From IMG/VR virus record IMGVR_UViG_3300010354_014451, positions 1 through 34,074 of that record: a stretch of 34,074 nt of DNA; one strand, given 5' to 3'. The notes beneath the pieces are model-generated. The model was not told the DNA's origin. It ran no database searches and was given only the letters and a program-made list of their open reading frames with translations. This stretch comes from a virus. Each line of letters opens with the position of its first letter. Position 1 is the stretch's first letter. The position numbers and the translations under genes are program-made. Below, one piece after another: positions 6,796 to 34,055 of the stretch.

Positions 6796-7353
6796 ATGTT
6801 AGGTATTGAAATGATTGGTGTTCTACCAATCGGAATGGACACAGGGGTTCCTAACTTATATGAAGAAGCAAGGATAGTAGAAACTGAAATTGCTGCTGTT
6901 GATATCAAACAGGTAATTCTAAACAGCATAGAATCACCAATCCTTTTATTAGATGATAGTGCTACACATAACACAGTAAAAACAAATGTTGCAACTCTGT
7001 CTAGTGAGATTGCAGCATTAGATGTATACTATAGAGTATTTGGTTACACTAATGAGGATGTAAGTCTTGAAGTAGCTGCTACTGACTTTCATAATTTACT
7101 GTTATATGTTTTAGATCCTGCCCAATTAGCAATTTTTAGCGATGTTAGCGGTGGCGCCAGCCAGAGTCTTCAACAGTTTAGCTCTCTTGAATTAGAATTA
7201 AACACAACAAACTTTGAAAGTTTTTATACGCTTAATCTACAGGAATTTGACAATAATCCTATTCGATTAGAAATTGGCGGAACCAGTGGAGAATTATTAG
7301 TAATAGCCGGCGGCGGAGCTCCAGCAGAAAAACCACAGATATGGATAGGCTAA
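6796..7353 (+). CDS. Hypothetical tail-associated protein, 185 residues
   Basis: Not recognised. Acidic; the first 30 residues carry IGVLPIGMDTGVPNLYEEA, the middle has Thr/Asn-rich and helical stretches, and the end has a glycine cluster (LLVIAGGGAPAEKP). It begins one base after the short fibre gene behind GGGGG, and its stop codon overlaps the start of the bilin reductase gene (TAATG). Co-transcription with the tail genes is clear. Whether it is a virion protein or a fibre chaperone cannot be read from the sequence. Confidence 0.65.
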   Translation: MLGIEMIGVLPIGMDTGVPNLYEEARIVETEIAAVDIKQVILNSIESPILLLDDSATHNTVKTNVATLSSEIAALDVYYRVFGYTNEDVSLEVAATDFHNLLLYVLDPAQLAIFSDVSGGASQSLQQFSSLELELNTTNFESFYTLNLQEFDNNPIRLEIGGTSGELLVIAGGGAPAEKPQIWIG

Positions 7354-8036
7354 TGGAATCACGCATCTGGGAAACACTGATAGATATTCAAAATCTTTTA
7401 ATAGATAGTTTCAACCATACAGGAATTGAAATTGAAGAACCAGGTATGGAAAGATTTAATCAGCCAGGATGGGTAAATCGTGTATGGACTAGCGAAATAT
7501 ACAGACGAGCACATATCGATGTAGTTGACGCTAGACAAAACAAAGGTCTATGGATGATGCATTGTTGTATCTTCCCTCATCTACATAATCCAGGTCCTAT
7601 CTATGGATTTGATGTTATAGCAGGAAAAAATAAAATTACAGGCTGTTTTCATGACTTTAGTTCTGCTGGCGACTTTAATCATCCTATGATACAGTGGTTT
7701 GGTAATCATGTTAGAGGTTACGAATGGTCTAAGGAGAGAACATTGCCTGAATGGGCTAGGAACATTTTCAGTCCTTATATGATTGCAGCAGGCAATGTGC
7801 ATAATGATATAGAACTCGAAACCATATTAGAAATCAGTAAAAAAACTACAAAATATTACCTAGAACACATCGGAAATTACAATAATCACCATGAAAATAC
7901 TATAGAATTCCAAAATTTTTATTGTATAAATCAAAAAAAGAATCCTCATACCCCTAGGGTAATGTCTAGCCTAGGACTTAATCAAGAAGATGTCACAGTT
8001 TTCATACAGGATTGTTTGTTTCCAGAGGCAAAATAA
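7353..8036 (+). CDS. Ferredoxin-dependent bilin reductase, copy 1 (PcyX/PebS/PcyA superfamily)
   Basis: 227 residues from the ATG in TAATG. An upstream in-frame ATG at 7341 is possible, but 7353 aligns better with the second copy at 33384. FDBRs reduce biliverdin or its products with electrons from ferredoxin. The signature MHCCIFPHLHNPGPIYGFD carries His70 and Asp87, 17 residues apart, the same spacing as the catalytic His88 and Asp105 of PcyA. Other family traits are RRAHID at 51-56, LPEWARNIFSPYMIAAGN in the second half, and a YCINQKKNP segment near the C-terminus. It is coupled to a tail gene, not to a heme oxygenase. About two in five residues match copy 2 by eye. Substrate and product cannot be assigned from sequence alone. 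Confidence 0.88.
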   Translation: MESRIWETLIDIQNLLIDSFNHTGIEIEEPGMERFNQPGWVNRVWTSEIYRRAHIDVVDARQNKGLWMMHCCIFPHLHNPGPIYGFDVIAGKNKITGCFHDFSSAGDFNHPMIQWFGNHVRGYEWSKERTLPEWARNIFSPYMIAAGNVHNDIELETILEISKKTTKYYLEHIGNYNNHHENTIEFQNFYCINQKKNPHTPRVMSSLGLNQEDVTVFIQDCLFPEAK

Positions 8037-8046: not shown

Positions 8047-10218
8047 ATGACAGAAAATGAAATAAAAGGAGCTCCAATAATCTATCTTGATATGGATGGC
8101 GTTCTAGCAGATTTTGACGAAGCATATCATAGAAAATTTGGTCAGGCACCTGCACCTACTGCCAAAGAGGATCCCTATATTCAGCAATTAAGGGGTTCGG
8201 ATTTTTTTGCTACTCTCAATAAATTACCAGATGCTGATAAAGTTGTCTCTCTTGCTAAGAAATTTGGTAATGGAAAATACAGTATTTGCTCAAGTCCATT
8301 GAGAGACGATATTAAAAATACGTCACATTGGAAGGCTGTTTGGTTAAAGAAACACTACGGCAGTTCACCCCCTGAGCATATGGTGTTTACAGGTAAAAAA
8401 GACAGCTATGCAGTTAGGGGAGATCAGTGGAATGTGCTCATAGATGATAAACCTAGAAATATTGATGCATGGAACACTCGTGGCGGTAAAGGAATATTAT
8501 ATAATGGCTATACAGATAGCATCGAATACCTTGAAAGCGAATTAAAAAAAATTTTTACCAACGATAATGCAGAAGTAAATGAAGATTCCGATGATTCAAA
8601 AAAAAATGAATTCAAGGAAATGTTTGGTAATTTCTTACCAATAGCCATTGAAGTTCTTCATTTAAAGTCACTTCCAGAATTTCATTTTGAAGCATTTTTA
8701 GATCATCCTCATCAACCAACTTTTGGCATGTATGTTAACGGCGAGAATAAACTTTATGTAGGATTAAGTGGTCGACATCCTAATGATATTCTTAGAACTA
8801 TTGCACATGAGTTAACTCATTATAAACAAGATACCGAACATAAACTTGACGATAATAGCGGAAGAACTGGTAGTCCTGAAGAAAATGAAGCTAATTCTGT
8901 AGCAGGAGTGATAATGAGGATTTTTAACAAAAAATATCCTCATTATCTAAAAAGTAAACCTGTTATGGAATCTGAAACAGATGAAAGTCTTAAGGGAATT
9001 GCCGCAGCAGGATTATTAGGATTAGGAATGTTAGGTGGTCCAAAAGATGTAGCCAGTGGTAACCTACCACAAGATCTACAAAAGGCACAGCAGCAACATC
9101 GTGTTCAAATGGCCAAGAAACCTATGGCCAAAACCGCAGTGGCAAAACCAGCGGCAGCAAAACCTTTGCCTGCCAAAGCAACACCTTTATTAAAAGTAGC
9201 TAAGGCTAATGGTATTACAGGTGTAGAACTGGCACAATTTTTAGCACAAATGGAACATGAAAGTCTTGATTTTAAGAAGATGAAGGAAATAGGTAAATCT
9301 ACCTACTTCAACAAATATGATAATAAACTTGGTAACAAGTTCAAGGGTGATGGGGCACAATTTAGAGGTCGTGGTTTTATACAACTAACAGGCAGAGGAA
9401 ACTACACACAGGCCAGCCGTGATATATTTGGAGATGATCGTCTAGTGAAGAAACCAGACCTAGCAGCACAACCAGATATAGCCGCACGTATAGCAGTTTG
9501 GTATTGGACTGATCGTGTGAAACCTTTGGTCAAAGACTTTTCAGATACTACTCGTGTTACAAAGATTATCAATGGTGGTCTAAATGGCCTGCAAGATAGA
9601 GAAAATAATTTTAGAGATTATATGGCTAGCCTTGGCCTAATGGAAAAATGGTCAATGAAGTATAAAAAGAGCATCAACTGTGCCAATCCTAAAGGCTTTA
9701 GTCAACGTGCTCATTGTCAAGGTCGTAAGAAAACAGAAGATGTAGAACAAGATCCTGGACAACCAATACCATTTCCTGCAGGAACAACTTCTATAGACGT
9801 CAGTGATCCATACGATTGGTATAAATTAGGTATGGTTATTAGCGACTTAGATGATGCTAATCCTAAGGCATTTGGTAAAGGAGGGCCTAGCACCGTTATT
9901 GCGTTTGGTAGTGAAGATGAGGAGCATAGATTATTACCCCATCTTAAACGATTAGGACTTAAATTACAAGATATAGATAAGCCATCAGATACTGAAAAAA
10001 TTGTTCCTGCAAAAGCAGTATTAGACAAGTTTGAAGAAAATTTTGCTGATGGTCGTAACCCACAGGACAAGGGCGACAGCGGTAGACATGGCATTAAAAA
10101 AGGTATTTCAATAGCACAACTAAAAAAGATTAGATCCAGTGACTCAGCTAGCCCAAGAAAAAAGCAGTTGGCACACTGGCAGATCAATATGAGACAGGGG
10201 CGTAGTAAAAAAGGATAA
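8047..10218 (+). CDS. Multidomain fusion: HAD nucleotidase, zinc peptidase, GH19 lysozyme-like
   Basis: 723 residues. Residues about 10-165: HAD-type 5'(3')-deoxyribonucleotidase-like domain (IIYLDMDGVLADFDEAY, CSSPLRD, VLIDDKPRNIDAW). Residues about 190-300: gluzincin-like domain with His254-Glu-Leu-Thr-His258 (IAHELTHYKQ) and a downstream SPEENEANS that could supply the third ligand. An Ala/Lys/Pro-rich linker at about 345-380 follows. Residues about 385-545: GH19 chitinase/lysozyme-like fold (AQMEHES with Glu403 and Glu405; RGRGFIQLTGRGNY). The C-terminus has INCANPKGFSQRAHCQGRKK and a basic DSGRHGIKKGISIAQLKK region seen on other marine phage proteins. Likely a virion-associated or lysis enzyme acting on peptidoglycan. 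The nucleotidase is unexpected in that setting. Expression is from a near-leaderless late promoter. Confidence 0.85.
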   Translation: MTENEIKGAPIIYLDMDGVLADFDEAYHRKFGQAPAPTAKEDPYIQQLRGSDFFATLNKLPDADKVVSLAKKFGNGKYSICSSPLRDDIKNTSHWKAVWLKKHYGSSPPEHMVFTGKKDSYAVRGDQWNVLIDDKPRNIDAWNTRGGKGILYNGYTDSIEYLESELKKIFTNDNAEVNEDSDDSKKNEFKEMFGNFLPIAIEVLHLKSLPEFHFEAFLDHPHQPTFGMYVNGENKLYVGLSGRHPNDILRTIAHELTHYKQDTEHKLDDNSGRTGSPEENEANSVAGVIMRIFNKKYPHYLKSKPVMESETDESLKGIAAAGLLGLGMLGGPKDVASGNLPQDLQKAQQQHRVQMAKKPMAKTAVAKPAAAKPLPAKATPLLKVAKANGITGVELAQFLAQMEHESLDFKKMKEIGKSTYFNKYDNKLGNKFKGDGAQFRGRGFIQLTGRGNYTQASRDIFGDDRLVKKPDLAAQPDIAARIAVWYWTDRVKPLVKDFSDTTRVTKIINGGLNGLQDRENNFRDYMASLGLMEKWSMKYKKSINCANPKGFSQRAHCQGRKKTEDVEQDPGQPIPFPAGTTSIDVSDPYDWYKLGMVISDLDDANPKAFGKGGPSTVIAFGSEDEEHRLLPHLKRLGLKLQDIDKPSDTEKIVPAKAVLDKFEENFADGRNPQDKGDSGRHGIKKGISIAQLKKIRSSDSASPRKKQLAHWQINMRQGRSKKG

Positions 10219-19202: not shown

Positions 19203-21512
19203 ATGATCACAGTGGTCAAGAGGAATGGGGATCGTGTTCCCCTGGACATTAGTAAAATACAGAGACAAGTTGCGAACGCTTGCAAGGGCATAGATGGTGT
19301 AAGTCCAAGCATGATCGAAATCAAAGCTCAGATAGAACTTCATGACGGCATTACAACTCAGACTATAGACGAGCTACTGCTTAAAGCTATGGTTAATCTA
19401 ATTGACGAAACAGAAAACACTGAAATCAACAATGTCAATTATCAATATGTAGCAGGCCGACAAAAAAATTCAATGCTACGTAAAGAGGTTTATGGAGAAT
19501 ATGATCCGCCTAAACTCTATAGTATCATTAAGAAAAATGTAGAATTAGGCATGTATACCAAAGAACTTCTGGACTGGTATACAGAAGATGAATGGAACAT
19601 CATTGATCTGTTTATTGATCATAGCAAGGACGAAAATTATACCTATGCTGCTATCGCTCAACTGGCTGAAAAATATTTGGTTCAAAATCGTGCGTCGGGG
19701 AGGATCTATGAAACTCCACAGGTTCGGTATGCCGTCGCTGCGGCAACTGCATTTCACGCAGAATCAAAGGATAAAAGATTAAAGTATGTAAAGGACTATT
19801 ATGAGTGCGCGAGCGATGGCCATTTCACTCTTGCCACCCCTGTGCTTGCTGGGCTTGGCACTACTACTAAACAGTTCAGTTCTTGCGTCCTTATCAGTAG
19901 TGATGATACCCTTGATAGCATATTTGCTGCTGGCGAAATGATGGCCAAGTATGCCAGTAAACGTGCTGGCATTGGTTTAGAAATTGGACGCATTAGACCA
20001 CTCGGTGCCCCCATTCGTAATGGTGAAATCAAGCACACAGGCATGATACCATTTTTGAAAAAGTGGTATAGCGATCTTCGTAGTTGTTCGCAAGGTGGAA
20101 TTCGTAACGCATCATGCACAGTTACGTTTCCTGTTTGGCATTATCAATTTGAAGATTTGATTGTATTAAAAAATAATCAAGGGACAGAAGAAACTCGCGT
20201 AAGGCAGATGGACTATTCAGTGGTAGTTAATGCTCTATTCTGGAATAGGTTTAAAAACAAACAAGATATTACTCTTTTTGATCCTCACGAAGTGCCAGAC
20301 CTCTATGAAGCATACTATAGAGACTCTGCTGAATTTGAAAGACTCTATCTTAAGTATGAACAAGATAAGACAAAGAAAAAGAAAGTTATATCAGCGGATG
20401 AGATATTCAAAAACGGAATTCTTAAGGAGCGCACTGATACGGGTCGAATTTATCTTGTCTTCATCGACAACGTCATCAATCAAGGCCCGTTTGATACGAA
20501 AGTGGATCCCATATATCAATCAAACCTATGCCAGGAGATACTTCTACCCACCCGTCCTTTCCAAAGAATTGAAGACTCTGAGGGACGAATTGCTCTTTGC
20601 ACTCTTGGCAGTATAAATTGGGGAGCATTTAAGACACCACAGGAAATGCGCAAAGCCTGTAGAGTTCTTGTAAGAAGTCTTAGTAACTTATTAAATTATC
20701 AAGACTTTCTTAGTGTTCAAAGTCAACTTGCCAATCAAGATTTTGAACCTTTAGGTGTTGGTATTACAAACCTAGCCTATTGGCACGCTCGCAAAGGATT
20801 AAAATACGGAGACACAGAAAGCCTGAAGGAAGTTAAAAAATGGATGGAACATCAGGCGTTTTATCTTACTGAAGTTAGTGTTGAATTAGCAGAAGAAAGA
20901 GGCCCTTGCAAACGTAGTAGTTTTACACACTACGGTAAAGGAGTGTTTCCTTGGGAAAGACGCAATCCTGGTGTTAACGAACTTACTGATTTTACTCCTA
21001 GTCTTGACTGGGAACCATTGCGAGCCAGAATGAAAAAACATGGTATTCGTAATGGAACGCTGATGGCTGTAGCACCTGTTGAATCTAGTTCTGTTGTTCT
21101 TAATTCAACAAATGGCATCGAGATGCCAATGGAATTGATCAGCGTAAAAGAATCTAAGGCAGGTTCGTTTGTTCAAGTTGTTCCTGAATATAAGAGACTG
21201 AAAAATAGATACGAATTAATGTGGGAACAGAAAGATTGTGCAAACTATCTAAAAACTGCTGCCGTTCTTGCTGCCTATATTGATCAAAGTCTTAGCACTA
21301 ATACCTTTTACAATCCAGCAAATTTTGTAGGTGCAAAAGTTCCTGCTACTGTTATTGCAAAAAATCTTATGCTTGCTTACAAGTGGGGCATCAAGACGAT
21401 CTACTATAGTCTTATCAACAAGGTAGGAGCAAAAGCAGAAATAACTACCAGCACTGTCTTGCTTGAGGAAGTTTCGCAGAGTGAAGAAAACTGCGAGGCC
21501 TGTGTATTATGA
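19203..21512 (+). CDS. nrdA: Class I ribonucleotide reductase alpha subunit
   Basis: 769 residues, close to the 761 of E. coli NrdA. Reduces ribonucleoside diphosphates to deoxynucleotides for phage replication. An N-terminal ATP-cone (TVVKRNGDRVPLDISKIQRQ) is followed by the catalytic barrel: first redox Cys in FSSCVLISSD, the radical-site loop SNLCQEILLPT (Asn, Cys, Glu), the second redox Cys in EGRIALCTLGSINWG, and the C-terminal shuttle pair in CEACVL. All key residues are present, so the enzyme should be active. SD AGAGGTG. Followed by a four-base overlap with a small ORF, then nrdB. A weak late-type GGTAAATA lies at 19165. Confidence 0.97.
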   Translation: MITVVKRNGDRVPLDISKIQRQVANACKGIDGVSPSMIEIKAQIELHDGITTQTIDELLLKAMVNLIDETENTEINNVNYQYVAGRQKNSMLRKEVYGEYDPPKLYSIIKKNVELGMYTKELLDWYTEDEWNIIDLFIDHSKDENYTYAAIAQLAEKYLVQNRASGRIYETPQVRYAVAAATAFHAESKDKRLKYVKDYYECASDGHFTLATPVLAGLGTTTKQFSSCVLISSDDTLDSIFAAGEMMAKYASKRAGIGLEIGRIRPLGAPIRNGEIKHTGMIPFLKKWYSDLRSCSQGGIRNASCTVTFPVWHYQFEDLIVLKNNQGTEETRVRQMDYSVVVNALFWNRFKNKQDITLFDPHEVPDLYEAYYRDSAEFERLYLKYEQDKTKKKKVISADEIFKNGILKERTDTGRIYLVFIDNVINQGPFDTKVDPIYQSNLCQEILLPTRPFQRIEDSEGRIALCTLGSINWGAFKTPQEMRKACRVLVRSLSNLLNYQDFLSVQSQLANQDFEPLGVGITNLAYWHARKGLKYGDTESLKEVKKWMEHQAFYLTEVSVELAEERGPCKRSSFTHYGKGVFPWERRNPGVNELTDFTPSLDWEPLRARMKKHGIRNGTLMAVAPVESSSVVLNSTNGIEMPMELISVKESKAGSFVQVVPEYKRLKNRYELMWEQKDCANYLKTAAVLAAYIDQSLSTNTFYNPANFVGAKVPATVIAKNLMLAYKWGIKTIYYSLINKVGAKAEITTSTVLLEEVSQSEENCEACVL

Positions 21513-21718
21513 CAGGTTCAAGCAAACGTGAACAAATTAATAAATGGTTAGATTATTATGGTTGTAGCCGAGATGTTGAAATAGAACCAGAAGCAGAGGA
21601 TTTGCTTCTGGTAGTTTTAATGGACCCTGGTGTATCTAAGGTATATGTTGATGATGAGGGCGGATTAGTAATTGAATCAGACGGTTCAGATTTTCAAGGA
21701 ACAGACAATGAGTATTGA
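21509..21718 (+). CDS. Small acidic protein between nrdA and nrdB
   Basis: 69 residues, not recognised. Very acidic; N-terminal helix (REQINKWLDYYGCSRDVEIE) and a short beta segment (VSKVYVDDEGGLVIESDGSD). It overlaps nrdA by four bases (ATGA) and nrdB by 11 bases, so it is embedded in the reductase operon. A regulatory or accessory role in dNTP synthesis is possible, but nothing in the sequence shows it. Confidence 0.65.
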   Translation: MTGSSKREQINKWLDYYGCSRDVEIEPEAEDLLLVVLMDPGVSKVYVDDEGGLVIESDGSDFQGTDNEY

Positions 21719-22811
21719 ACAATATAACATAAAAAAACAGACCAACTACCTTAAAAGAAAAATGTTTTTGGATCCTGAAGGTCCAGTCACAGTGCAGAGA
21801 TTTGAAGAAGTTAAGTATCCTAAAATACAAAAGTTTGAGGAACTAGCAAGGGGTTTCTTCTGGGTGCCCGAAGAAATTAGTTTGACCAAAGATAAGATTG
21901 ATTTCAAGGAATCTAGCGATGCTGTCAAACATATTTTCACCAGTAACCTACTACGACAAACAGCATTAGACAGTATTCAAGGTCGTGCCCCATCACAGGT
22001 CTTTGGTCCAGTGATTTCTATTCCAGAAGTTGAGGCTTTAGTTAGCAATTGGAGCTTTTTCGAAACCAATATTCATAGCAAGAGCTACAGTCATATTATT
22101 AGAAATATTTACGGTGTTCCCAAAGAAGAATTTAACAAAATACACGACACAACAGAAATTGTGGAAATGGCTGCAAGTGTAGGTGAATATTACGACCGTT
22201 TACATAAACTCAATAGCTTGAAAGAAGTAAATCCAGAATTAGTCGATGAAAAGGAACACATTAAAGCAATCTGGTTAGCACTAAATGCCAGTTATGCTTT
22301 AGAAGCCCTAAGATTTATGGTAAGTTTTGCTACAAGTTTAGCCATGGTTGAAAATCGTATCTTTATTGGTAATGGTAATATTATTAGCCTTATCTTACAG
22401 GACGAATTACTGCACACAGAGTGGACAGCCTATTTGATCAATCAAGTAGTAAAAGATGATCAAAGATTTGCCGATATCGTTGACGAATGTCGTGCTGAAG
22501 TATATAACATGTATATGGAAGTAATTCAAGAGGAAAAATCTTGGGCTGATTATCTTTTCAGCAAAGGTGTTGTTATTGGACTGAATCCTCAAATTCTAAA
22601 AGACTTTGTTGACTACACGGCTTTTATTAAACTAAAAGAAATAGGAATTAAGTATATGGAAGAACATCCAAAAACTAGTCCCATTCCTTGGTTTAATAAG
22701 CATGTTAATATCAATAAAAAACAGACAGCACTTCAAGAAAACGAATCAACAAACTATGTCATTGGAGTTATGAGCGATGTCATAGAATATGATGATTTGC
22801 CCACACTATAA
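21708..22811 (+). CDS. nrdB: Class I ribonucleotide reductase beta subunit
   Basis: 367 residues from the ATG at 21708 behind AAGGAACAG; the TTG at 21672 is unlikely. The protein houses the di-metal centre and radical Tyr that activates NrdA. Ligand motifs are LDSIQGR (Asp), FFETNIHSKSYSHIIRN (Glu, His and radical-site Tyr), EALRFMVSFA (Glu) and LQDELLHTEW (Glu, His). In E. coli the first pair reads ETIHSRSY; here ETNIHSKSY has one extra residue between Glu and His. Operon order nrdA - ORF - nrdB - glutaredoxin gives a complete dNTP module. Confidence 0.96.
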   Translation: MSIEQYNIKKQTNYLKRKMFLDPEGPVTVQRFEEVKYPKIQKFEELARGFFWVPEEISLTKDKIDFKESSDAVKHIFTSNLLRQTALDSIQGRAPSQVFGPVISIPEVEALVSNWSFFETNIHSKSYSHIIRNIYGVPKEEFNKIHDTTEIVEMAASVGEYYDRLHKLNSLKEVNPELVDEKEHIKAIWLALNASYALEALRFMVSFATSLAMVENRIFIGNGNIISLILQDELLHTEWTAYLINQVVKDDQRFADIVDECRAEVYNMYMEVIQEEKSWADYLFSKGVVIGLNPQILKDFVDYTAFIKLKEIGIKYMEEHPKTSPIPWFNKHVNINKKQTALQENESTNYVIGVMSDVIEYDDLPTL

Positions 22812-22822
22812 GGAGAATAATC

Positions 22823-23059
22823 ATGCAGGCAATTATCTGGTCAAAATATCACTGCCCCTTTTGCGATCAAGCCAAAATGTTGTTAAAACAAAAAGGTATT
22901 ACATTTGAAGAAAGAAAAATTGGTGATGGTTGGACCAAAGAAGAACTATTAGATGAAATTCCTACAGCTAGAACAGTTCCTCAAATTATTTTGGATGGTA
23001 AACTAATTGGTGGATTTACTGAACTAAAAAGTTATCTAGCAGAGGCTGTAAATGGATAA
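22823..23059 (+). CDS. grx: Glutaredoxin
   Basis: 78 residues, a full glutaredoxin fold. Active-site CPFC at about residues 12-15 (SKYHCPFCDQAKMLL), the cis-Pro loop TVPQIILDGKLIGGFTEL with the GG-F-T/D glutathione-binding turn. It would reduce the NrdA C-terminal cysteines using glutathione, which matches its position 11 bases behind nrdB. SD AAGGAG. Overlaps the next gene by eight bases. Confidence 0.95.
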   Translation: MQAIIWSKYHCPFCDQAKMLLKQKGITFEERKIGDGWTKEELLDEIPTARTVPQIILDGKLIGGFTELKSYLAEAVNG

Positions 23060-29905: not shown

Positions 29906-29972
29906 AGTTTGTGATATACCTTATTGGATATCATAAAAGAGCAAAAGCTCAAAAATACTCACTTAATAAAGG
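29902..29972 (+). promoter_or_regulatory. Possible alternative RNA structure in dnaK leader
   Basis: CCTTATT at 29919-29925 can pair with AATAAAGG at 29965-29972 (one bulged A), which would cover the start of the dnaK ribosome site. Its CTTATT part can instead pair with AATAAG at 29902-29907. The two pairings exclude each other. Pairs are short and AU-rich, so this is only a candidate switch or thermometer. Confidence 0.3.
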
Positions 29973-29983
29973 AGAAAAAGATT

Positions 29984-31873
29984 ATGAGTAAAGTCATCGG
30001 TATCGACCTCGGCACCACCAATAGCTGTGTTGCAGTAGTTGAAAATGGAACCCCAAAAGTAATTGAAAACTCAGAGGGTGCAAGAACAACACCCAGTATT
30101 ATTGCATACGGTGAGGAAATCCTTGTAGGAGCTCCTGCAAAACGCCAAGCAGTTACAAATCCCAAAAACACTATCTACGCTGCTAAACGTCTAATTGGAC
30201 GTAAATTTAAAGAAGACGCAGTTCAAAAAGATATTAACCTAATGCCCTATTCAATCGTTGAAGCATCTAATGGAGATGCTTGGATTGAAGCTAACGGACA
30301 AAAATTAGCCCCTCCCCAGATTTCTGCAGAAGTCCTTCGTAAGATGAAGAAGACTGCAGAAGATTATCTAGGGTCAGAGGTTACCAAGGCGGTAATTACT
30401 GTTCCTGCTTACTTTAATGATAGTCAGCGACAGGCAACTAAGGACGCTGGTCGCATTGCCGGTCTTGAAGTGCTACGTATTATTAATGAACCTACAGCAG
30501 CCGCTCTTGCCTATGGTGTTGACAAGCAAGACAAGAAAGATAGAAAAGTTGCAGTCTATGATCTAGGTGGCGGAACATTTGATATTTCAATTATTGAAAT
30601 CGCTAATGTAGACGGCGATAAACAAATTGAAGTTCTGAGCACTAACGGTGATACTTTCTTAGGCGGTGAAGACTTTGACCAAAGAATCATGGATCATTTG
30701 GTCAACGAATTCAAAAAGGAGCAAGGAGTTGACCTAACTAAGGATGTTTTGGCACTCCAACGTTTGAAGGAAGCAGCTGAAAAGGCTAAGATTGAATTGT
30801 CTAGTAGTCAACAGACCGCAGTGAACTTGCCATATATTACAGCAGACTCCAGCGGACCTAAACACATGAATATCAGTATTTCAAGATCAAAACTTGAATC
30901 TCTAGTTGATGATCTTATTCAACGCAGTATAGAGCCTTGCAAGACCGCAATGAAAGATGCTGGTGTAACTGCTGCTGATATCGATGAGGTTATTCTTGTT
31001 GGCGGCATGACTCGCATGCCTAAGGTGCAGTCAGCAGTTGAACAATTATTTGGTAAAGCACCTCGTAAAGATGTAAATCCAGACGAAGCAGTTGCAGCTG
31101 GTGCTGCTATTCAAGGAAGTGTTTTAGCAGGCGAACGTAAGGATGTTCTTCTTTTAGATGTTACTCCTTTGAGTTTAGGTATTGAAACTCAAGGCGGAGT
31201 AATGGCAAAGTTAATTAAAAAGAATACTACAATCCCTACTAAGACCAGTGAAACGTTTAGCACCGCCCAAGATAATCAACCAGCCGTAACTATCAAGGTA
31301 TTTCAAGGAGAGCGAGAACTTGTGGTATATAACAAAATGTTAGGAGAATTTAATTTAACTGATATTGAACCTGCGCCGAGGGGTATGCCGCAAATTGAAG
31401 TTACTTTTGACGTAGATGCTAACGGTATCCTTAATGTAACGGCAAAAGACAAGAAGACAGGTAAGCAGAATAATATTACAATTAAGAGCAGTAGCGGTCT
31501 ATCTGAAGCTGAAATTGAGCGTATGGTCAAAGAAGCAGAAGACAATGCCGAATCCGATAAAAAGCAACGTGATCTAATCATGGCAAGGAATCAAGCAGAA
31601 AGTCAAGTTCATGCTGTAAGAAAGGATTTGAAAGATTTTGAATCTAAAATTAAGGATGAAGAAAAGTCAAAAATTGAAGAGGCAATCAAAGAACTTGAAA
31701 CAGCTATGAGTGGCGATGATGTTGAAAAAATTAATAAACTCGCAGGAGAATTGTTTACAGCATCTATGCCTTTGATTACTGTTAAACAAGAAAAAGATAA
31801 AGAAGCTCAAACTACACAATCAACTAAGGATGATAATGTAGTAGATGCGGAATTTACTGAAAAGAAAGACTGA
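29984..31873 (+). CDS. dnaK: Hsp70 chaperone DnaK
   Basis: 629 residues from the ATG with GGAGAAAAAG upstream; a TTG 60 bases earlier is unlikely. Complete bacterial DnaK: phosphate-1 [41 protein letters not shown], phosphate-2 [28 protein letters not shown], interdomain [13 protein letters not shown], substrate-binding domain to about 500 and a helical lid. The end [11 protein letters not shown] keeps the VDAEF tail of proteobacterial DnaK. It folds nascent or stressed proteins with DnaJ and GrpE, which are not encoded here and would come from the host. Full-length DnaK is unusual in phages. Followed one base later by a 52-residue gene. Confidence 0.97.
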
Positions 31874-31874
31874 T

Positions 31875-32033
31875 ATGGCTGAAGCTGGAAAAGGTTCAAG
31901 ACCGCGCCCTTATAGTGTCGATCAAAAAACCTTCGACACTAACTGGGAAGCTGTATTTGGTAAAAAGGATCAATCGGCAGAAGAAAATTCTGCCGATGAT
32001 GAAATTATTGATCACTCAGGTGAGGATCAATAA
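31875..32033 (+). CDS. Small protein (52 residues) between dnaK and hsp20
   Basis: Start at the ATG one base after the dnaK stop. N-terminus MAEAGKGSRPRPYSVDQKTF, then NWEAVFGKKDQ and an acidic tail (SADDEIIDHSGEDQ). The GKGSxxRPxxxxxxFxxNWxxIFGKK pattern is found in many small phage proteins of unknown role. It carries two strong hairpins in its coding sequence. Position between chaperone genes suggests co-expression with DnaK; no evidence of a direct link. Confidence 0.75.
   Translation: MAEAGKGSRPRPYSVDQKTFDTNWEAVFGKKDQSAEENSADDEIIDHSGEDQ
31913..31997 (+). other. Two hairpins inside the 52-residue gene
   Basis: TAGTGTCGA / TCGACACTA (31913-31921 with 31933-31941, 11-base loop) and ATCGGCAGAA / TTCTGCCGAT (31973-31982 with 31988-31997, 5-base loop), both perfect. 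They could slow ribosomes, or act as mRNA processing or decay barriers between dnaK and hsp20. Neither has a T-tract. Confidence 0.55.
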
Positions 32034-32035
32034 TA

Positions 32036-32048
32036 GGGCATAGTGCCC
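32036..32048 (+). other. Small hairpin in hsp20 leader
   Basis: GGGCA-TAG-TGCCC, 5-bp stem and 3-base loop, between the 52-residue gene and hsp20. Too short and without T-tract for a terminator. The ribosome site AAGGAGAT follows 18 bases later. Confidence 0.35.
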
Positions 32049-32079
32049 ATGTATCTTACTTTATAAGGAGATTTAAAAA

Positions 32080-32514
32080 ATGACACAATTAGTTAGATTT
32101 GATACAAATGCTCTTAATAGAGCTCTTTTAGGTTTTGATCATTTGTTCACTGATTTTGAGCGTAGATTCTCTAATCAAATTAATAATAATTATCCTCCGT
32201 ATAATATTATTAAAACTGGTGAGAACCATTACGATCTTGAAGTGGCTGTAACTGGCTTTGAAAAGTCAGATATTACAGTCGAAGTTAATCAAGACATGCT
32301 CATTGTAAAAGGAGAACGCAGCAAGAACAATCCTGATGAAAGAACATACCTTCATCATGGTTTAGCTTCTCGAGACTTTACAAGAACTTGGCCTCTTGCT
32401 GAATTTATTGAAGTAGGTGAAGCTAAGATTAAAAATGGTGTGTTAACCATTAAGCTGGAGAGAGTGGTTCCAGAATCACTTAAACCGCGAGTGCTTCAAA
32501 TTAAAGAAGACTAA
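32080..32514 (+). CDS. hsp20: Small heat shock protein Hsp20 (IbpA-like)
   Basis: 144 residues. N-terminus (LNRALLGFDHLFTDFERRFS) of the IbpA type, then an alpha-crystallin domain at about 38-130 (NHYDLEVAVTGFEKSDITVE, MLIVKGER, SRDFTRTWPLAEFIEV, IKNGVLTIKLERVVPE with the GVLTI motif) and a short tail with LQI like the I-x-I anchor. It holds unfolding proteins for refolding by DnaK, which is encoded just upstream. Hsp20 is known from T4-like cyanophages. SD AAGGAGAT; a terminator lies directly behind. Confidence 0.93.
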   Translation: MTQLVRFDTNALNRALLGFDHLFTDFERRFSNQINNNYPPYNIIKTGENHYDLEVAVTGFEKSDITVEVNQDMLIVKGERSKNNPDERTYLHHGLASRDFTRTWPLAEFIEVGEAKIKNGVLTIKLERVVPESLKPRVLQIKED

Positions 32515-32518
32515 TATC

Positions 32519-32539
32519 AAGGGGCCCAAGGGCCCCTTT
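32519..32539 (+). terminator. Rho-independent terminator
   Basis: AAGGGGCCC, AA, GGGCCCCTTT, directly after hsp20. The stem is strong; the T-tract is only three bases. It ends the dnaK-hsp20 transcript and precedes the clpS promoter. Confidence 0.8.
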
Positions 32540-32546
32540 CATTAAC

Positions 32547-32554
32547 ACTAAATA
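32547..32554 (+). promoter_or_regulatory. T4-type late promoter-like octamer (ACTAAATA), leaderless
   Basis: ACTAAATATAATT then ATG at 32560. The predicted +1 coincides with the ATG, and no SD is present. The octamer departs by two bases from TATAAATA. An alternative reading, TATAAT at 32553-32558, is too close to the ATG to be its -10. Confidence 0.45.
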
Positions 32555-32559
32555 TAATT

Positions 32560-32865
32560 ATGAGCACAGAACACGTTTTAGAAAAAACGCCTAAAGTTTT
32601 TGAAAGAAATAAATCTCCAAAAAAATACAAGGTCATTTTTCTAAATGACGACTTCACTCCAGTTGAATTTGTAATAGTGCTGCTTATGAAGATCTATAAA
32701 CACCCTGAAAGTGTTGCTAGAGAAATCACTATGAAAATCCACAACGAAGGTAGCGGTGTTGCTGGTATATATTATTTTGAAATAGCTGAACAAAAAATGG
32801 CCGAGTCTATTGGATTGGCTCGAACAAATAATTTTCCATTAGATATTAAATTAGAACCGGAGTAA
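32560..32865 (+). CDS. clpS: ClpS N-degron adaptor
   Basis: 101 residues. The ClpS core is complete: KVIFLNDDFTPVEFVIVLL (Asn and Asp that hold the N-degron amino group), KIHNEGSGVAG with the conserved His, YYFEIAEQKM and a C-terminal LDIKLE. ClpS hands proteins with destabilising N-terminal residues to ClpAP and blocks other substrates. Where E. coli has the gating Met40, this protein has Val. No clpA or clpP is in the window, so it would act on the host protease. Starts from a leaderless late promoter after the hsp20 terminator; heme oxygenase follows after one base. Confidence 0.92.
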   Translation: MSTEHVLEKTPKVFERNKSPKKYKVIFLNDDFTPVEFVIVLLMKIYKHPESVAREITMKIHNEGSGVAGIYYFEIAEQKMAESIGLARTNNFPLDIKLEPE

Positions 32866-32866
32866 C

Positions 32867-33409
32867 ATGAGTCTTAAAGAAATTACTAAAGAAAAGCATG
32901 CCGAAGCTGAATCAACACCGTTTATGAAGGCAGTATTTGCTAGAAATTTACCACACGACCTTTGGATTGATTGGACTAAACAAAAGTCGCTTTTCTATAA
33001 TGTTATAGAATATCATGCTGAAAAATTAGGTTTGTTAGATAATTTAAACAGCATCAAGCGAAGTTATTTCCTTAGTCAAGATTATGCGCTGATGAATAAG
33101 AGTAGATTGATACACTCCTATCGTAAACCTGTTATTGCCTATGTGGACTATCTAAACAGCATAGCAGAAGATCCTAAAAAAATTCTAGCGCATCTTTACA
33201 CATGGCATATGGGAGATATGTTTGGCGGTCAAATGATTAAGAAGATTGTTCCTGGTAGTCATTTAAATCTTGAATTTGAGAATTTGCCTCAACTAATGCA
33301 GACTCTTAGACAAAGGTTAACTGATGATATAGGAGATGAAGCGATTAAGGCTTTCGAATGGGCTATTATAATGATGAGGGATTATGACACACATTTGGAA
33401 CAAAATTGA
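32867..33409 (+). CDS. ho1: Heme oxygenase (biliverdin-producing), compact form
   Basis: 180 residues, shorter than cyanobacterial HO1 of about 240. The proximal heme ligand lies in KEKHAEAESTPFMKAV (His11; H-xxx-E-xxxx-M spacing as in HO1), and the distal helix is LAHLYTWHMGDMFGGQMIKK (Gly-Asp-x-x-Gly-Gly, where HO1 has GDLSGG). The reaction opens heme to biliverdin, CO and iron with reducing power from ferredoxin. SD CCGGAG. Overlap of 26 bases with the FDBR gene shows a two-gene bilin operon. Heme must be supplied by the host. Confidence 0.93.
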   Translation: MSLKEITKEKHAEAESTPFMKAVFARNLPHDLWIDWTKQKSLFYNVIEYHAEKLGLLDNLNSIKRSYFLSQDYALMNKSRLIHSYRKPVIAYVDYLNSIAEDPKKILAHLYTWHMGDMFGGQMIKKIVPGSHLNLEFENLPQLMQTLRQRLTDDIGDEAIKAFEWAIIMMRDYDTHLEQN

Positions 33410-34055
33410 AGAACTAGCACGATATTTAGAACAACGTTTTAACGCCACAGGAGAACCTATAGAGGGTAAACTCAATGAAAAATATGACTGGGAAAATACT
33501 CTTTGGTCTAGTATTAGATATCGTAGGGCACATATAGAAATTGTAGATAAGAGAGACACAAAAGGGATTTATATTTTACATTCTACTGTGTTCCCTCATT
33601 TTAATGATCCTAGTCCAATATGGGGTTTTGATGCTATATGCGGAAAAAATAAGATAACTGGCGCATTTCACGATTTCAGTGCAGCAGGAGACAGCAATCA
33701 TTTCATGATGCAATGGTTCGCTGATAATACTAAACATTTACTGTGGAGCAAACCTAGAGAACTTCCTGTTTGGGCTAAACAAATTTTTAGCCCTAGTATG
33801 ATAGCAGCAGGTAATTTACAGGAAGAAAATGAGATTGATCTTTTATGTAGCACAGCTCTAACTTCCTTAGATTATTATCTAGAGAATGTAGGACTAACGC
33901 AGATTAGCGGAGGTGACTACCATATGGCGCAAAATCGATACTGCTATTATCAAAAACAAAACCCACAGGTAGTTAAAAGTATGGTTGCTTTAGGTGTTCC
34001 GGAAATCACTATCAATAAATTTGTTGAAGAAATTTTGTTTCCAGAAACTGTATAA
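33384..34055 (+). CDS. pcyX: Ferredoxin-dependent bilin reductase, copy 2 (PcyX-like)
   Basis: 223 residues. Signature LHSTVFPHFNDPSPIWGFD carries His66 and Asp83, 17 apart as in PcyA His88/Asp105. Other shared family segments: RRAHIEIVDKR, GKNKITGAFHDFSAAGD, LPVWAKQIFSPSMIAAGN, and RYCYYQKQNP with a C-terminal EEILFPE. The pairing with a heme oxygenase matches published marine phage ho1-pcyX pairs; PcyX makes phycoerythrobilin from biliverdin in published work. Product here is inferred. It overlaps heme oxygenase by 26 bases, and its stop lies within the next late promoter. Copy 1 lies 25 kb upstream. Confidence 0.9.
   Translation: MTHIWNKIEELARYLEQRFNATGEPIEGKLNEKYDWENTLWSSIRYRRAHIEIVDKRDTKGIYILHSTVFPHFNDPSPIWGFDAICGKNKITGAFHDFSAAGDSNHFMMQWFADNTKHLLWSKPRELPVWAKQIFSPSMIAAGNLQEENEIDLLCSTALTSLDYYLENVGLTQISGGDYHMAQNRYCYYQKQNPQVVKSMVALGVPEITINKFVEEILFPETV

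Follow-up and report, generated by a model that had tools for sequence, protein, structure and literature searches.

The window, by which we mean the whole 34,074-base IMG/VR virus record IMGVR_UViG_3300010354_014451, contains two intact open reading frames (ORFs) for ferredoxin-dependent bilin reductases (FDBRs), at 7353–8036 and 33384–34055. Both proteins score above the cut-off of the Pfam Fe_bilin_red profile (PF05996; 52.5 and 49.8 bits against 31) and have a predicted FDBR fold, placing both in the family. They are the only two FDBRs in the record and are 43% identical over 224 columns, in agreement with the first-pass annotation of this DNA, which described two complete but divergent FDBRs in one phage that agree at about two in five residues. 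The features of the two loci are as follows.

6796–7353, plus strand: tail-region ORF with no assigned function; its stop overlaps the start of the next gene (TAATG)
7353–8036, plus strand: FDBR of the PcyX type (D-type), with Asp76 (equivalent to PcyX Asp55) and Met86 in PcyA numbering; predicted to convert biliverdin to phycoerythrobilin
8047–10218, plus strand: conserved gene 3′ of the D-type FDBR, with NT5C-like and chitinase-like domains; 88% identical in contigs G005 and G003
29984–31873, plus strand: full-length DnaK/Hsp70, conserved neighbour; the ORF opens at 29924 and the protein start was placed at 29984
32080–32514, plus strand: Hsp20 small heat-shock protein, conserved neighbour in the heme oxygenase cassette
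32560–32865, plus strand: ClpS (PF02617), conserved neighbour in the heme oxygenase cassette
32867–33409, plus strand: heme oxygenase (PF01126), the sole one in the record
33384–34055, plus strand: PcyA-like FDBR (E-type), with Glu76 and Ile86 in PcyA numbering; predicted to convert biliverdin to phycocyanobilin

About 25 kb separates the two FDBR genes, and their gene neighbourhoods differ. As had been proposed, one of them accompanies heme oxygenase: the start of the 33384 copy is overlapped by the heme oxygenase end by 26 nt. The DnaK-Hsp20-ClpS-heme oxygenase cassette (window 29984–33409) thus lies immediately 5′ of this FDBR; ClpS, a protease adaptor, is constantly linked with heme breakdown. 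The 7353 copy had been described as joined by translation to a tail operon. Its start does share a TAATG with the stop of the tail-region ORF before it, which makes translational coupling plausible; a further in-frame ATG lies upstream, at 7341. The window also encodes the large and small subunits of ribonucleotide reductase, followed by glutaredoxin (19203–23059). The T4-type late promoter motif TATAAATA occurs three times in the window against 4.06 expected by chance, and this near-chance count permits no inference on expression timing.

The arrangement of the window is reproduced in an independent 118 kb contig, IMGVR_UViG_3300021963_007890 (G005), which has a D-type FDBR at 53.0 kb and an E-type FDBR beside heme oxygenase at 79.6 kb. 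The two loci are 26.6 kb apart, and nearly all window genes from 7.3 to 34 kb are collinear between the two records. A second contig, G003 (109 kb), is also collinear with the window but has a single FDBR and an empty tail site. The homologue of the 8047–10218 gene marks this site as occupied or empty: in G005 it follows a homologous tail-fibre gene and the D-type FDBR, while in G003 the tail-fibre gene is followed by 62 bases and then by this homologue. The N-terminal and inserted segments of this gene vary among G003, G005 and the window, around the 88% identical core. Thus, although the upstream tail-fibre region is divergent and is a usual place for recombination, the presence of both FDBRs at matching loci in G005 with collinear genes between them, together with the empty site in G003, leaves virtually no probability that the window is an assembly chimera of two phages, as the first-pass annotation had allowed.

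Residues His74, His88 and Asp105 of PcyA are conserved in both window FDBRs, as expected from the PcyA-type catalytic His and Asp reported initially. The copies differ at the position that corresponds to Glu76 of PcyA and Asp55 of PcyX, which is Asp in the 7353 copy and Glu in the 33384 copy; here we take PcyX Asp55 to be Asp63 of the 5OWG chain less eight apparent tag residues. A second difference is at position 86, which published work reports to be highly conserved in PcyA (PMC9800206): the 7353 copy shares Met with PcyX, and the 33384 copy shares Ile with Synechocystis PcyA. We surveyed both positions in 195 distinct related sequences. Every Asp76 type has Met86 (120/120), as in PcyX, and every Glu76 type has Ile or Val86 (65/65), as in PcyA; the other 10 of the 195 carry Ser, Gln, Asn or His at position 76. 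A few of the latter (L020, L021, L022, L014 and L249) are E-type relatives, which suggests that function may drift in this part of the family; judging from this residue, further bilin products are possible among them.

The tree and the structures agree with this division. D-type sequences group in a single clade that includes PcyX (5OWG) and Pelagibacter phage Mosig (support 99/99), and the E-type sequences around the 33384 copy form a separate phage clade beside PcyX (98/96). The D/E label switches once on the tree. The deeper branching order is weakly supported, and a larger tree left it open. Both proteins lie within the PcyA/PcyX lineage, so the tree placement initially suggested as a check does not refute the two-enzyme idea. 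AlphaFold models of the two copies (pLDDT 92.7 and 93.0) both have 5OWG as best fold match, followed by PcyA. By sequence, the 7353 protein matches solved PcyX with 245.8 bits and the 33384 protein with 171.2 bits. Among solved FDBRs only PcyX and PcyA match both copies by sequence, PebA and PebB being only weaker fold matches, so that neither copy groups with the PebA/PebB lineages. The 7353 copy combines the PcyX clade, the Asp55 equivalent and the catalytic His and Asp. The 33384 copy falls outside the PcyX clade, has Glu in place of PcyX Asp55, and shows the PcyA set Glu76, His88 and Asp105 plus His74 and Ile86. Recent duplication within the phage was rejected on the 43% identity, the separate clades and the lack of repeats, in keeping with the original exclusion of a near-identical duplication.

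We searched, over their whole length, 167 related virus records that had been found through these FDBR proteins. Two FDBRs are present in eight of them and hence, with the window, in 9 of 168; this is not a population frequency, because of how the records were found, and it may undercount pairing, since many records are fragments. Pairing is therefore uncommon among related records, as was supposed when a single FDBR was taken as the usual phage complement. All nine pairs consist of one Asp type and one Glu type, never of two of the same type, so the search of viral contigs recommended in the first-pass annotation yielded the same pair in eight further contigs. Besides G005, these are seven contigs with a tandem D-E pair in the order heme oxygenase-PcyX-PcyA (IMG/VR 3300047554_000527, 3300032240_000688, 3300027710_001079, 3300044675_001892, 3300043438_000976, 3300034117_001294 and 3300009159_004776). 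In each, heme oxygenase is directly 5′ of the pair and ClpS is near. Some of these contigs are near-identical, so the independent tandem lineages number fewer than seven, roughly three to five. Mapped onto the tree, pairing among the E-types requires four state changes, which indicates repeated gain or loss. On sequence criteria, then, the 7353 copy is of the PcyX type, the 33384 copy is PcyA-like and the pair recurs as a tandem operon, all of which goes beyond the initial description.

D-type loci generally have DnaK, Hsp20, ClpS and heme oxygenase nearby (75–79 of 80). In the window and G005, the E-type gene takes the cassette place that is usual for the D-type, which is located elsewhere. 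In one of the tandem contigs, G017, ClpS and heme oxygenase are separated by a beta-ketoacyl-synthase-like gene (L155:11059–12273), and four other tandem contigs have a similar 1.2-kb gap. AlaS is present in G017 and five other records and absent from the window. D-type FDBRs were also seen in genome bins from unrelated bacterial phyla, assigned to Neomarinimicrobiota, Rickettsiales, Halobacteroidaceae and Arcticimaribacter (L162, L163, L164 and L165); these may be phage contigs that were binned along.

Reduction of the 18-vinyl group depends on Glu76, a residue specific to PcyA and not present in PcyX (PMC10151467), and a freshwater phage FDBR from CB_2, which lacks PcyX Asp55, makes phycocyanobilin (PMC11480375). 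Characterised PcyX and PcyA each carry out the full four-electron reduction (PMC11480375, PMC6755814). On these grounds the 7353 copy is likely a phycoerythrobilin synthase and the 33384 copy is probably a phycocyanobilin synthase. We favour, with modest confidence, a pathway in which one heme oxygenase supplies two parallel four-electron FDBRs that make these two pigments from the same biliverdin. The phage heme oxygenase would open host heme to biliverdin IXalpha, and both FDBRs, each a single protein, would draw on this common pool. In the 33384 enzyme, Glu76 with His88 and Asp105 would allow 18-vinyl and then A-ring reduction to phycocyanobilin, a blue pigment. In the 7353 enzyme, with Asp replacing Glu, C15=C16 and then the A ring would be reduced, giving the pink phycoerythrobilin. 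Heme oxygenase occurs once per record in 19 of the 19 records tested, so if the two enzymes are expressed simultaneously they presumably compete for biliverdin.

Electrons would have to come from host ferredoxin, as no gene for Fer2 (plant-type ferredoxin) was found. Indeed, neither Fer2 nor photosystem reaction-centre nor CpeT lyase genes were detected in 26 records, many of them fragmentary, with positive controls in known genomes. Cyanophage light harvesting is therefore unlikely. The hosts are apparently non-cyanobacterial; host assignment from phage DnaK matches proved unusable, as several matches resemble cellular DNA in phage records. More tentatively, and at somewhat less than even probability, we suggest that phages of non-cyanobacterial hosts have repeatedly built a two-pigment pathway, at tandem or split loci, in which one heme-derived biliverdin pool gives both phycocyanobilin and phycoerythrobilin, and that this pathway serves some end other than light harvesting.

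The pair may also have a different purpose: its main use could be to clear heme, free iron or take up electrons, with pigment identity incidental. The lack of photosystem reaction-centre, CpeT and Fer2 genes in the 26 records speaks for this reading. Iron supply has been discussed for such phages (PMC11480375), and this role could coexist with the predicted products. It leaves unaccounted for, however, why the reductases kept are of two distinct types and why every pair combines both, and we regard it as unlikely, though it is the strongest of the alternatives. Somewhat less probable still is that both FDBRs yield the same product, or that the E-type is retained for reasons of dosage or timing as a copy whose product has changed. 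The near-E-type relatives with Ser, Asn, Gln or His at position 76 would fit such a history, and the relation of structure to function in FDBRs is reported to resist reliable prediction (PMC13193486), which makes product prediction from sequence uncertain. Yet the residue split is clean in 185 sequences, pairs are never of the same type, and the changes are mostly synonymous. Between the window and its relatives, the E-type shows dN/dS of about 0.05–0.14 (dS 1.4–3 or saturated) and the D-type, for which dS is saturated, pN of 0.18–0.23 against pS of 0.75–0.83. This is consistent with both copies being kept functional.

Sequential action, in which a two-electron intermediate of one enzyme is finished by the other as in PebA/PebB, was among three roles first proposed for the pair. 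A channelled pathway could look like the seven contigs in which adjacent genes, D then E, directly follow heme oxygenase. In the window, however, ~25 kb separates the copies and each has its own gene neighbourhood. Most E-type and D-type genes are found singly with heme oxygenase, and the characterised PcyX and PcyA (PMC6755814, PMC11480375) each complete the four-electron reduction. We consider a serial pathway improbable, and two parallel enzymes likelier. Of the three roles, the best supported is that each enzyme makes its own bilin from shared biliverdin, since the very residues that separate characterised PcyX from PcyA are those at which the copies differ.

If two parallel products are made, the recurrence of one PcyX with one PcyA-like enzyme implies that two bilins, beyond the possession of any reductase, may be useful to these phages. 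This bears on why phages carry bilin reductases at all, above all in non-cyanobacterial hosts. The pair is also a natural matched set for asking whether the product is determined at position 76 (together with 86), and G003 and G005 offer a comparison without and with the tail-site gene.

Of the known systems, cyanobacterial PebA/PebB likewise places two FDBRs on one biliverdin source, but these enzymes transfer two electrons each, in series, and belong to lineages that contain neither window copy. Alphaproteobacterial PcyA (AX clade) has the Glu76, His88, Asp105 and Ile or Val86 of the 33384 copy; these are cellular genes, only about 28–29% identical to it. PcyX, the oceanic phage phycoerythrobilin synthase (PDB 5OWG), found also in Pelagibacter phage Mosig, shares clade, Asp55, Met86 and fold with the 7353 copy. 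D-type genes elsewhere likewise adjoin heme oxygenase, whereas the window gene lies away from it, in the tail region of a record with a second FDBR. The vPcyA of CB_2 (Crystal_bog_pmoC-phage_2), shown to make phycocyanobilin, resembles the 33384 copy by description in lacking PcyX Asp55 and in having a phage heme oxygenase, but that phage has AlaS, which the window lacks, and is described with one FDBR. A search for CB_2-like phages through AmoC/pmoC gave no match, and the controls gave none either. In annotated phage genomes, 31 records match PebS and 27 match cyanophage PcyA; the genome in both lists is P-RSM6. A literature search, with subscription papers mostly outside its scope, found no discussion of the P-RSM6 two-FDBR case or of a PcyX and PcyA pair. 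In this isolate Prochlorococcus phage, pebS and pcyA are adjacent and overlapping, with no heme oxygenase annotated within the 6.6 kb viewed; one enzyme is predicted to make phycoerythrobilin and the other phycocyanobilin, analogous to the window pair although PebS is from another FDBR lineage. The P-RSM6 tandem thus provides a precedent for two FDBRs in one phage.
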